Positions 9,347-56,743 of a stretch of DNA of 64,000 nt are shown one piece after another. This DNA is from Acuticoccus sp. MNP-M23. Lineage in GTDB: Bacteria > Pseudomonadota > Alphaproteobacteria > Rhizobiales > Amorphaceae. The notes beneath the pieces were generated by a model. That model was not told the DNA's origin. It ran no database searches and worked only from the letters and a program-made list of their open reading frames with translations. The position numbers were made by a program, and so were the translations under genes. The DNA lies in NCBI RefSeq assembly GCF_031195445.1, contig NZ_CP133480.1, positions 496,001 to 560,000 on the forward strand, read 5' to 3'. Numbering within the stretch: the first letter of the stretch is position 1; every line of letters starts with the position of its first letter.

Positions 9347-10564
<1,218 letters not shown>

Positions 10565-10608
10565 CGCTGCACCAATACGCCGGGCGGGCCTGACCCCGTT
10601 TCGAAGAG

Positions 10609-10639
10609 AAAAAGCCGGTTCCAAGAACCGGCTTTTTTT
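10609..10639 (+). terminator. Intrinsic terminator of argG
   Basis: A perfect 8-bp GC-rich stem (GCCGGTTC at 10614-10621 with GAACCGGC at 10625-10632), a CAA loop and a seven-T tract, with A residues upstream that can extend the stem. It lies 45 bp after the argG stop codon. The A-tract on the other side would let it act in both directions. Confidence 0.88.
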
Positions 10640-10919
10640 GCGTCCACCGCCGCGGTCCTGCCGGCCGCGCCACATCACGGAAGGCTGCACCATGAAGATC
10701 ATTGTCGTCGGCGCGTCGGGAGACATCGGCAGGGCGGCCTGCGAGGAGCTGGGCGCCCGTCACGATCTCATCCGCGTCGGCCGCTCCAGCGGCGACATTC
10801 AGGTGGACATGTCCGACCGTGCCTCCATCGACGCGATGTACGCGCGGGCCGGCAGGGTGGACGCCGTGGTCTCCACGGCCGGCGACGTCCACTTCGGGCC
10901 CCTTGAGGAGCACACCGAG

Positions 10920-11138
10920 GTTGTAGCTAACGCTGTAATTTCCATCAGAAAAATTTTCTGCGGATAGCCGCGTGTACAGCCCTGGAAGTTCATCAACCGA
11001 AAGATTTTCACTAAGGTTGTCAATGTTGATCGCTATCGAGCCGCCGCCTGCAGAGTACCTACTATAAAGTCCCTCCCGCGTTAGAAAATCGACTTCATAA
11101 TATTGCTCACCATCAATTTCGTAAAATGCGCTACCCAT
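10920..11138 (-). CDS. Small unknown protein in AT-rich insert, 3' end truncated
   Basis: The ATG at 11138 follows a strong GGGAGGAAATA ribosome site and shares one base with the preceding stop (TAATG), so the two insert genes are coupled. The protein begins MGSAFYEIDGEQYYEVDF and has about 73 residues from the insert itself. The frame then runs by chance into antisense dehydrogenase sequence and ends at 10515, giving 207 aa in total, so the native C-terminus is lost. There is no signal peptide. It is rich in Tyr, Ser, Asn and acidic residues. I do not recognise a family. Confidence 0.5.
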
Positions 11139-11473
11139 TATTTCCTCCCAGTGCAGCGTGTTCCGTCGCCGACTATGTCGACATTGTCTATTAATCCAAA
11201 CAATATTGACGGATAGACAAAAGTATTTAATATTCCGGCGAATCGACCATTTATTTTTATATAGTGTTCTATGCTGTAAAAATTAGGGTCTACATGATAC
11301 TCGTACTTGCTTGTTGATACTTCAGGTTCAGCGCCGCATTTATTTGAAATGTACCGAAGCGCGATATCTGCGCTCGAAGTAATGGCTTGTTGGGGGCCGA
11401 ACTCATTCGAATGCGCAGAGCACCATGATCCTAAAATAACTACCCACGCTATGGTGATAATTATAGCGCGCAA
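11138..11473 (-). CDS. Small secreted protein of unknown function in AT-rich insert
   Basis: A 111-aa product from a TTG start at 11473, with GGGAG about ten bases upstream. Residues 2-20 form a signal peptide (AIIITIAWVVILGSWCSA). The mature part of about 90 aa has two cysteines (near 51 and 107) that could form a disulfide, and an aromatic, Asn-rich centre. Its TAA overlaps the next ATG. Codon use is AT-rich, unlike every neighbour, which points to horizontal acquisition. I recognise no family. Confidence 0.5.
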   Translation of the reverse strand: MRAIIITIAWVVILGSWCSAHSNEFGPQQAITSSADIALRYISNKCGAEPEVSTSKYEYHVDPNFYSIEHYIKINGRFAGILNTFVYPSILFGLIDNVDIVGDGTRCTGRK

Positions 11474-11838
11474 CCTACTGTATCTCCCGCATCCTAGAGT
11501 TTGGCATCCGTCTTTTCCGTATCTGCTGTCAAGGGCAGGGCCTTCGCCAGAAGGTGATGGGGCAGATCAACCTCGTGCTGGCCGGCGTTGGCGCGGCAAC
11601 GGCCAATGGCGCGCTCGGCGGCTTTGTGGTCGGCTCTGCCGTAGAAATGCCGCGCGGCCTGCGGATCAACGTCGTCAGCCCCGGCGTGCTCGATGTTTCC
11701 GTGCCGCGCTACGGTGCATGGTTCCCGGGCCACGAGCCGGTGGCGTCCGGGCGGGTCGGGCGCGCCTATGCCAAGAGCGTCGAGGGGGCGATCACCGGGC
11801 AGGTGATCATCGTCGGCTGAGGAGAGCCGGCGGCCGGG

Positions 11839-13287
11839 TCAGTCGACGACGATCTTGACGAGCTGGCCCGGCTTCAGCGGATTTTCCGCGTCGATCCCGT
11901 TCAGCGTCTCGAACAGGGGGCGCTTCATCTCGTGGTCGACGCCGCGCATCCGGGCCGAAAGGCCCACCACCGTATCGCCCGGCTGGGCCGGCACCACCTG
12001 CAAGGTGAGCGGGCGCATGGCCGCCCGCTGCGACGGGGTCAGCACGCGGAACGAAGCCAGCGTGCGACGGAACGCATCCTCGTAGGCCGAAGCCGGCTCC
12101 GACGAGGCGAAGATGAAGCGGTAGACCCGCTCCGGCCCGCGCACCACCGCAATGCGGAACGACCAGCCGTCCACCAGCGCAGAGGCGATGGCCACAGGCA
12201 TCCCGCCCAGCGTGCTCGGCCGCACGGAGTCGGTGATCAGCCCCTTCACCCAGCCGGAGCGCAGATAGTCGCCAAGGTTTTCGCCCGAAGGCACCGACAC
12301 CGCGTCGAACCGGATGGCGGTGTGCTGCCCGTCGGTGGCGAGCACCGCGGCGGACGTGTTCTTCAGCACATAGCCCTGCGGCACGGTGAACGCGATGCCG
12401 AGTTCGGAGTGCGCGAACTCCCGCCCGCGCACATAGCCCTCGCGCGGGTCGTCGCCGAACAGCGCCCCGTCCAGGCTCTCAAGGTAGCCCTCGCGCTCGG
12501 TGAGGCCGATGCCGGGCGCCGCAAACGCGCGGGCTGCGCGGCGTGCGTTGTCCACTCTCGCCGGCGTCGACGGGTGGGACGACAGGAAGCTCGGCCGCGT
12601 GGCGCTGGCCGCGTTCATGGCCGGCAGCTCGCCGTAGCGGGCCATGGCGCCCAGGAAGCGTGCGGCGGCAAACGGGTCGAACCCGGCCTTTGCCAGTGTC
12701 TGCACGCCAATCTCGTCGGCCTGAAACTCCTGCCGCTGGCTGAAGGAGGCAAGGCTCACGTCCGCCGTCTCGCGGGTTTCGAGCCGGATTTCGGGGTCGT
12801 CCACCACATCGCTGACCCTTCGGGCCAGCGCGACGGCGCGGGCCTGCCGCTGGCGCTGACGCGCGTGGTCTGCCGTGACGTGGGCCAGCTCGTGGGCGAT
12901 CACAGCCGCAAGCTCGCTCTCGTCGTTGGCAAGGGTGATGAGGCCGCGCGTGATGTAGAGGTCGCCGGAGGGCAGCGCGAAGGCATTGACCGCCGGCGCG
13001 TTGAGGATGGTCACCTGGATCGACTGATTCGGATTCGCCGATGCCGCGACCAGACGGCCCACCAGCGAGGCGACCTCGCGCTCGATCTTGGGATTGTTGT
13101 AGACGCCGCCGTAGCTGGCGATGAGCTTTTCGTGCTCCTTGGAGCGCGGCGGGCGCACGGGTGCGGCGATGACGGCAGGGCCGGGCCGCGGCATGGCCGC
13201 GGTGATGACCGGCGATTCGCTGATCGACCCGCCGCAAGACGCCACAAGCAGCGCAGCAAGGACGGTTGCCGTCCATTTTGCCTTCAT
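11839..13287 (-). CDS. M48 family metallopeptidase, lipoprotein
   Basis: A zinc metallopeptidase (482 aa) with HELAH near residue 130 and the third-ligand segment EFQADEIG. The start at 13287 (MKAKWTATV) gives a lipoprotein signal with lipobox VASC, so it should be anchored in the envelope facing the periplasm. The C-terminus (VPAQPGDTVVGLSARM to NPLKPGQLVKIVV) resembles a LysM-like module. Envelope M48 enzymes such as BepA take part in outer-membrane protein quality control. Its ATG overlaps the stop of the SNase-like gene (ATGA): last gene of a three-gene operon. Confidence 0.85.
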   Translation of the reverse strand: MKAKWTATVLAALLVASCGGSISESPVITAAMPRPGPAVIAAPVRPPRSKEHEKLIASYGGVYNNPKIEREVASLVGRLVAASANPNQSIQVTILNAPAVNAFALPSGDLYITRGLITLANDESELAAVIAHELAHVTADHARQRQRQARAVALARRVSDVVDDPEIRLETRETADVSLASFSQRQEFQADEIGVQTLAKAGFDPFAAARFLGAMARYGELPAMNAASATRPSFLSSHPSTPARVDNARRAARAFAAPGIGLTEREGYLESLDGALFGDDPREGYVRGREFAHSELGIAFTVPQGYVLKNTSAAVLATDGQHTAIRFDAVSVPSGENLGDYLRSGWVKGLITDSVRPSTLGGMPVAIASALVDGWSFRIAVVRGPERVYRFIFASSEPASAYEDAFRRTLASFRVLTPSQRAAMRPLTLQVVPAQPGDTVVGLSARMRGVDHEMKRPLFETLNGIDAENPLKPGQLVKIVVD

Positions 13288-14063
13288 GGCGAGCGCAGGC
13301 CGCGCAGGGCGCGATCGGCGCGCAGCCGCTCGACCTGCCTTGGATGCTCGAGCCGGATCAAGCCGCCGTTCCACGCCTCCAAAACACCCCTTACACGGAT
13401 TTGCGTTCCCGCCAGGTCGGCAAGTTCGCTGTCCCAACCCCTGGCGTCGCTGCGCCGGACAAGTACGGTAAAATCGCTGTCGTAGTCTTCGCCGAAATTC
13501 AGATATACCGTGCTCCGCGTCTCGCCGACGCTCTTCACCAAACCGGACACCAGCGCAAAGGCGCCGGCCTCACTGGAAAGCGCGGGATTGGCTGCGGAGC
13601 GAACCCCATCCGGCCGCGCCCAGAACCCGCGCTGCTCCATTTCTGCTGCGCGCTCCGCCGTGAAGAGGACTTCGAGACACGCCTCCGACATACCAGTGGG
13701 ATCAACAAGCGCAAGACCCTCGCGAAGCCACCCGTCAAGAAGGCCGGGCCCTGTGTCTTCTAAGACAATATCGCCAATTATCCGCCCGTATCGGTCCGCC
13801 TGCGGTGCATCCGCCATGGCCCTCACCGCAACGCGGCGGCCAGCCAGCGCGGCGAGATCGAGCGAAGGCAGGTCCTCGCCCACGCTCGTGGTTGTGGCCG
13901 GGACGATGCCGCCGATCCGCACCTCCCGCCCATCCTCCAGCGTGACCGAAAGGTAGCCATCCGCGCCGGACACGATACCGGGCGCCAGCGGGGCGAAACA
14001 CGCCTCGGCCGCCGCCGCGGGGGCAGCCAGTGCCAGGGCAATGGCGAGCGCTGCCCGCTTCAC
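13284..14063 (-). CDS. SNase-like (thermonuclease fold) secreted protein, probably catalytically degenerate
   Basis: A 259-aa protein from a GTG at 14063 that overlaps the upstream stop (GTGA). A signal peptide (VKRAALAIALALAAPAAAA) directs it to the periplasm. The middle follows the staphylococcal nuclease fold: RIGGI, then DRYGR, a GLLDGWLREGLALV helix and AERAAEMEQRGFWA. The usual DTPE segment with its catalytic Glu is replaced by VPATTT, so nuclease activity is doubtful. A second beta-rich region follows (STVYLNFGEDYDSDF). Its role may be binding rather than cleavage. Confidence 0.7.
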   Translation of the reverse strand: MKRAALAIALALAAPAAAAEACFAPLAPGIVSGADGYLSVTLEDGREVRIGGIVPATTTSVGEDLPSLDLAALAGRRVAVRAMADAPQADRYGRIIGDIVLEDTGPGLLDGWLREGLALVDPTGMSEACLEVLFTAERAAEMEQRGFWARPDGVRSAANPALSSEAGAFALVSGLVKSVGETRSTVYLNFGEDYDSDFTVLVRRSDARGWDSELADLAGTQIRVRGVLEAWNGGLIRLEHPRQVERLRADRALRGLRSP

Positions 14064-33479: not shown

Positions 33480-33554
33480 TGGAGCGGGCGATGGGGATCG
33501 AACCCACGACATCAAGCTTGGGAAGCTTGCGTTCTACCGCTGAACTACACCCGC
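33480..33554 (-). tRNA. tRNA-Gly (CCC anticodon)
   Basis: Read on the minus strand, the gene runs GCGGGTG (acceptor 5' strand), a D arm AGCGGTAGA, an anticodon stem CAAGC/GCTTG around loop TTCCCAA, a T arm with GGTTCGATCCC, and CGCCCGC (acceptor 3' strand). Position 73 is T and CCA is encoded. The anticodon CCC decodes GGG. All four stems pair with only one G-T in the acceptor. The flanking stretches 33341-33479 and 33555-33695 hold no gene I can support. Confidence 0.95.
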
Positions 33555-56023: not shown

Positions 56024-56154
56024 CGGACTGCTTGACGTTTGGACAGACCTGAGCCTGCCCGCAAGCCAACTTCAAGCCACGTTTGCGCCTGTCCAGACGA
56101 TATCCCCGCCGTTTCCACCCTTCTCAAACCGCGCTCTCTCCCCTATATTCCGTT

Positions 56155-56184
56155 TTGCCAGCGACGGTTGGCTATGGCGATAAA
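56155..56184 (+). promoter_or_regulatory. Possible promoter of the tmRNA gene
   Basis: TTGCCA (56155-56160) and GATAAA (56179-56184) are spaced by 18 bp and would start transcription near 56191, just before the acceptor piece. A TATATT at 56144-56149 is a competing -10 element with a poor -35. Confidence 0.35.
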
Positions 56185-56189
56185 TGGTT

Positions 56190-56480
56190 AGCGCAATAAG
56201 CTCTTCGGACCCGGGGGCGGTACCCGGCGCCTCCACCCAAGCCGCGACCCACAGTGCGGGACGCGGTTTCGGCGGGGGCGAAATAGGATCGACGAGGGTG
56301 TAAAGGCTTTTCTTTCGCTCGGTATGGTACCACCGTTATCGGACCAAACCTGTAGTTGCAAATGACAACTATGCTGAGGCTCGTCTCGCTGCGTAACGCA
56401 GTGCGATAACCTTGACTAAGCCCTTTCCCTTAGCCGGGCGAGGCGGGGTTCGGAGGCACCCGGCAACAGAAGCCTCCACT
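56190..56480 (+). ncRNA. ssrA: Circularly permuted two-piece tmRNA
   Basis: The acceptor piece comes first: it has a T-arm stem CCGGG/CCCGG and ends in CGCCTCCA (56228-56235). After a spacer of about 37 nt, the coding piece starts at 56274 with GGGGGCG, which pairs with CGCCTCC to rebuild the acceptor stem. The tag frame starts at resume codon GCA (56358) and encodes ANDNYAEARLAA, with TAA at 56394-56396. A downstream pseudoknot uses GCCGGG/CCCGGC and GAGGC/GCCTC. This order is the alphaproteobacterial permuted form. CCA is not exactly encoded (CCACCC), so the tail is probably added enzymatically. End coordinates are approximate. Confidence 0.93.
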
Positions 56481-56743
56481 TCATTCCAGCATCGCGGACC
56501 ACAACCTTTGCAGGCCCATACAGCGTGCAAGTGCCGCCAGTTCCGTGCGCCGGGCACAGCGTCACGCCGGACAAACCAGCTATTTCAGTGCTCTTGCCGC
56601 GTAAACGACTTGTCACGCGGTTTGCAAAGGCCGAAAAGATCGCGACTGCTAAAAAAACACCCGTGCCGATCAATACCGCAATCATGACCCGTTGGATTGA
56701 TGGGGCGGACACGCTACCTATGCCGCATTGAAGGAGGTGGATC

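Follow-up and report, generated by a model that had tools for sequence, protein, structure and literature searches.

A foreign-looking, low-G+C fragment with apparently orphan reading frames interrupts a dehydrogenase gene in Acuticoccus sp. MNP-M23

Within a 64,000-nucleotide stretch of Acuticoccus sp. MNP-M23 (hereafter the window; positions 496001-560000 of a 4.945-Mb contig, in a genome of 5.16 Mb in 7 contigs), we found a PRK07578-type dehydrogenase (SDR) gene that is doubly broken, by a foreign-looking, AT-rich insert of approximately 619 bp and by a 75-bp deletion. We consider it reasonably probable that the insert is a piece of foreign DNA that illegitimate recombination brought into an accessory, dispensable gene. 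The interrupted gene (10692-11820, plus strand) lies between two genes that were identified as ORF calls and that we named from their protein sequences. The upstream neighbor (9347-10564, plus strand), whose 3' part is conserved in relatives at the DNA level, is presumably an argG-like gene (argininosuccinate synthase), and a terminator-like hairpin with a T-run, read by eye, follows it at 10608-10639 on the plus strand. The downstream neighbor (11839-13437, minus strand), also conserved in relatives at the DNA level, we take to encode an M48-like peptidase. An Rfam search of 10500-11900 returned five weak matches, none of which reached the gathering score or lay inside the insert.

The two parts of the SDR gene were searched separately against NF005754 (PRK07578), a family whose curated whole-protein cut-off is 167 bits. 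The 5' part (10692-10919, plus strand) scored 101.4 bits over positions 1-75 of 200, and most of the 3' part (11539-11820, plus strand), searched as 11554-11820, scored 89.6 bits over positions 119-198. Each half therefore falls short of the cut-off, and the genome holds no match above it; judged by its sequence, the split gene appears to be a broken PRK07578 relative and no working member of the family. We also compared it with the intact homologues of four genomes (G001, G026, G044 and G046) at the level of both DNA and protein, using BLAST and reading codons side by side. All four homologues read straight through the insertion point and lack the insert. Past the residue aligned to 10917-10919 they have five more codons, followed by a G-L-x-x-K-V-M-G-Q stretch whose counterpart in the window starts near 11539, where SDR homology returns in a frame different from that of the 5' part. 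Measured against these homologues, approximately 15 bp of the SDR gene were lost and replaced by the insert (10920-11538), whose edges are good to about 3 nt. The initial annotation had read the coding sequence as clean up to about 10919 and as resuming in another frame beyond the insert, and both the homology and the NF005754 matches of the two parts bear this out.

The same comparison revealed a second lesion that the initial annotation had missed, a deletion of 75 bp that keeps the frame and lies near 11586, downstream of the insert and separate from it. The SDR of the window passes from LAG almost directly to AATANG, where the intact homologues have 25 further residues in between. Since the deletion removed the stretch aligned with GSFTLTSG, which is presumed to contain the catalytic serine of SDR proteins, it would very likely inactivate the SDR on its own. 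The gene thus resembles the PRK07578 dehydrogenase (NF005754) in the match of each half to the family and to intact members, and differs from it in being interrupted and in having lost these internal residues.

Homologues above the NF005754 cut-off were present in 6 of the 61 genomes searched, namely the four already mentioned together with G045 and G059, whose homologues contain no internal stops; the genome under study was not among them, and only one of seven congeners was. To these congeners we added two further members of the family, giving nine family relatives in which the gap separating the 3' end of the argG-like gene from the peptidase-like gene was measured from DNA match edge to DNA match edge. 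This gap is 64, 96, 118 and 131 bp in G003, G005, G004 and G002, respectively, and since the neighbors lie so close together there is no SDR gene at the site in these four of the nine relatives. In G006 a gap of approximately 770-774 bp (727-1501 of locus L019) is filled with other sequence, so this site could accommodate different genes from one lineage to another. The remaining four relatives showed no short gap among the at most six candidates scored per genome: the two matches lie about 2.4 kb apart in G009 and on different contigs in G007, the argG-like end alone was matched in G008 and neither flank in G001. Because 6 of 61 genomes exceeded the cut-off and the neighbors are adjacent in four of nine family relatives, the SDR is an accessory gene, apparently lacking in most close relatives and seen at this site only here.

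The insert is set apart from its surroundings by composition. Its G+C content is 43.8% (over 10920-11535) against 66.3% for the whole window, and 600-bp windows away from it average 66.5% (sd 3.2%) and reach 57.2% at the lowest, which upholds the earlier description of the insert as the sole tract so low in G+C within 64 kb. The tetranucleotide profile likewise marked it as an outlier, with a distance from the rest of 0.80, compared with a mean of 0.365 (sd 0.040) and a highest value of 0.49 across 207 other stretches of 619 bp; values of 0.62 and 0.46 were obtained for the SDR parts, which are too short for comparison on the same scale. When insert DNA was sought in 60 relatives, none was found among the matches listed (at most six candidates per genome). 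From its composition and its absence from the relatives searched, we infer that the insert is foreign, having been acquired horizontally from a low-G+C donor. Elsewhere in the window, the next lowest-G+C 600-bp stretch, which starts at 56279, is overlapped by a tmRNA (56143-56487, plus strand) that ARAGORN marked with an asterisk (perhaps the permuted type) and that carries the tag ANDNYAEARLAA.

Two open reading frames were called on the minus strand of the insert. ORF1 (11138-11473, 111 aa) is complete from start to stop; it opens with a TTG, before which inspection by eye showed only a modest Shine-Dalgarno sequence, and its product is probably exported, as suggested by a hydrophobic, signal-peptide-like N-terminus that was also judged by eye. 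The ATG of ORF2 at 11138 shares a base with the ORF1 stop codon (TAATG) and lies five bases downstream of a Shine-Dalgarno sequence, GGAGG, at 11148-11144. The 73 codons of ORF2 inside the insert (10920-11138) include no stop, and the frame continues through the SDR antisense to 10515. The whole open frame (10515-11138, minus strand) spans 207 aa and ends in the 3' end of the argG-like gene; its length is probably a by-product of antisense frames in high-G+C DNA. ORF2 is most simply read as the front of a gene that was cut at the left junction: because it reads on into SDR antisense, the left edge of the insert would lie inside a gene, as a fragment would show. The initial annotation had described the insert as a small unknown cassette of two coupled genes with good start signals. 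ORF1 is indeed whole, and the Shine-Dalgarno sequence and TAATG coupling of ORF2 are good; however, ORF2 is truncated at the left junction, ORF1 starts less convincingly, and the cassette description is not supported.

We weighed the coding potential of these frames against the composition of the insert itself. When the insert was dinucleotide-shuffled 2000 times, a complete ORF reached the length of ORF1 in 38 shuffles and an open run of at least 132 codons occurred in 20; for this composition the length of ORF1 is unusual but not overwhelming. G+C content by codon position is flat (0.43/0.42/0.41 in ORF1 and 0.52/0.38/0.42 in ORF2) and lends no support to coding. Although neither this codon-usage signal nor a homologue was found for the two ORFs, the length of ORF1, its signal-like N-terminus and the Shine-Dalgarno sequence and coupling of ORF2 favor their being real genes. 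AlphaFold models from single sequences had mean pLDDT values of 47.3 for ORF1 and 43.9 for the 73 residues of ORF2, too poor for a fold search.

Homologues were sought with ORF1 (P0001) and with the start of ORF2 (P0002, 82 aa including 9 C-terminal residues read from SDR antisense). Neither protein matched a Pfam, NCBIfam or padloc family at E-values up to 10, and the PHROG search yielded one match of unknown function at E 0.37; no homology to toxin-antitoxin or effector-immunity families was seen in these four collections. There was no match in plasmid or phage records by tblastn (E up to 1) or in plasmid records with the DNA of 10900-11560. Pattern-based locus searches gave 88 and 219 pattern matches in genome contigs and 10 and 18 in viral contigs, none of which was confirmed, and the best sequence matches in the PDB had E-values of 0.11 and 1.1. 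In a sample of 297 genomes of the order (E≤0.01), each protein was found in its own genome only and was absent from the 296 others. Their absence from the nine family relatives and the rest of this sample led us to reject the idea that the insert is an ancestral spacer. In a class sample of 385 genomes, P0001 matched 14 at E≤0.1, its own included, the best of the others (E 0.0047, 27% identity) lying within a 355-codon frame, and P0002 at E≤0.01 matched its own genome only. P0002 also matched 6 of 398 genomes of a phylum sample at E≤0.1, again including its own, with a best other E-value of 0.046. These weak matches are about what per-genome E-values yield by chance over so many genomes. Neither ORF therefore appears to have a convincing homologue among the plasmids, phages, viral and genome contigs, and order, class and phylum samples covered, in agreement with the initial annotation, which had recognized neither protein.

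The events that we favor would have begun with an accessory SDR gene between the argG-like and M48-like genes, interrupted by a low-G+C fragment of approximately 619 bp. The fragment would be part of another organism's gene pair, comprising about 65 bp of upstream sequence, a complete small gene and the 5' part of a coupled gene. It would have entered through illegitimate recombination, independent of Ku and of site-specific machinery, taking the place of about 15 bp of target sequence, and it would have been tolerated because the SDR was dispensable; we infer both the route of recombination and the neutrality of the insert. Illegitimate recombination of a stray fragment fits because the edge lies inside ORF2, the loss of target is small and the ends are not recognizable as those of an element. 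The longest word shared between the insert edges is 4 nt, a length attained by 98% of 2000 randomly chosen position pairs, and the longest inverted end word is 5 nt, reached by 83% of random pairs; neither a target duplication nor a terminal inverted repeat is thus present beyond chance, as the initial annotation had stated. A repeat search at the insert returned only short, imperfect or internal pairs. No second copy of the insert was found in the genome among the 40 candidates scored out of 92 from a first look, nor in the protein searches. An IS element, transposon or MITE was rejected on the chance-level terminal repeats and target duplication and the single copy.

Two known processes invite comparison. 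Homology-facilitated illegitimate recombination (HFIR) involves the loss of some target bases and requires homology at one end. As one report describes, it allows small foreign linear DNA to integrate without site-specific machinery (PMC3240628). The insert resembles its products in the apparent lack of such machinery and in the loss of about 15 bp of target. HFIR is the closest named process; recognizing its one-end homology needs the donor, and the donor of the insert was not found. In rhizobia, Ku/LigD end joining captures foreign DNA. This non-homologous end joining, a topic of PMC7719229, would similarly leave a foreign piece and a small target loss when heterologous DNA is captured. However, Ku (PF02735, E≤0.001) was not detected in the genome, which speaks against Ku-dependent capture, and we rejected it, although in an assembly 98.29% complete the absence is not absolute; in a control of 14 genomes, Ku was detected in Bacillus subtilis only.

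The main rival to fragment capture is that the insert is what remains of a larger integrative element or island, such as a phage or plasmid, that entered the SDR gene and was mostly deleted, leaving no recombinase or ends. We regard this as rather unlikely, while recognizing that later pruning of a larger import would likewise produce a truncated ORF2 and a minor loss of target. Deletions would leave an ORF2 cut at the edge and some 15 bp of target missing, and a second deletion does lie nearby in the same SDR gene. According to a survey, integrative elements account for many of the genes acquired recently (PMC2718499). The insert ORFs share with the ORFans of such elements a small size, a deviant composition and the apparent want of homologues; they are unlike them in that no element was found around them. 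Against a larger import stand the results for the insert proteins in PHROG (E 0.37 at best) and padloc (no match), the lack of matches to plasmid records with DNA and protein queries and to phage records with protein queries, and the positions of the only tRNA or tmRNA genes in the window, at 33480 and 56143.

That the insert is instead a self-contained mobile cassette, of integron type, a MITE or the like, with a pair of orphan genes whose products are possibly a secreted and a cytosolic partner, as in a toxin-immunity or effector-immunity pair, we consider very unlikely. Two coupled small ORFs without homologues, one of them exported-looking, in a single AT-rich block would suit such a cassette, but ORF2 has no stop inside the block, the block is single-copy without terminal repeats or target duplication, and its proteins fall into none of the families searched. 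The core motifs of integron attC sites are GTTRRRY and RYYYAAC, and neither strand of 10851-11600 contains a match to them; with ORF2 running through the left edge, an integron gene cassette was rejected. An artefact we also consider very unlikely: although no homologues of the ORFs were found, the length of ORF1 recurs in the shuffles and codon-position G+C is flat, the two SDR parts follow each other in the expected order within a single contig of 4.945 Mb, which argues against misassembly, and the ORF2 start signals and the signal-peptide-like opening of ORF1 argue against chance frames in AT-rich noncoding DNA. Most far-fetched is the idea that the insert is the first known example of a pair of orphan genes, one for an exported protein and the other for its coupled partner in the cytosol, that moves between genomes as a compact unit, and that ORF2 is now expressed as a fusion of up to 207 aa whose C-terminus comes from SDR antisense.

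Taken as a case of fragment capture by illegitimate recombination, the locus gives the impression of a commonplace remnant of DNA transfer and gene decay that includes orphan ORFs, and not of a new genetic element. A single example whose donor was not found settles nothing by itself. It does offer a clean case in which an apparently dispensable gene has come to carry a foreign-looking piece of DNA and its orphan genes, while neither mobile-element machinery nor Ku was detected, and such cases bear on how ORFans reach genomes.
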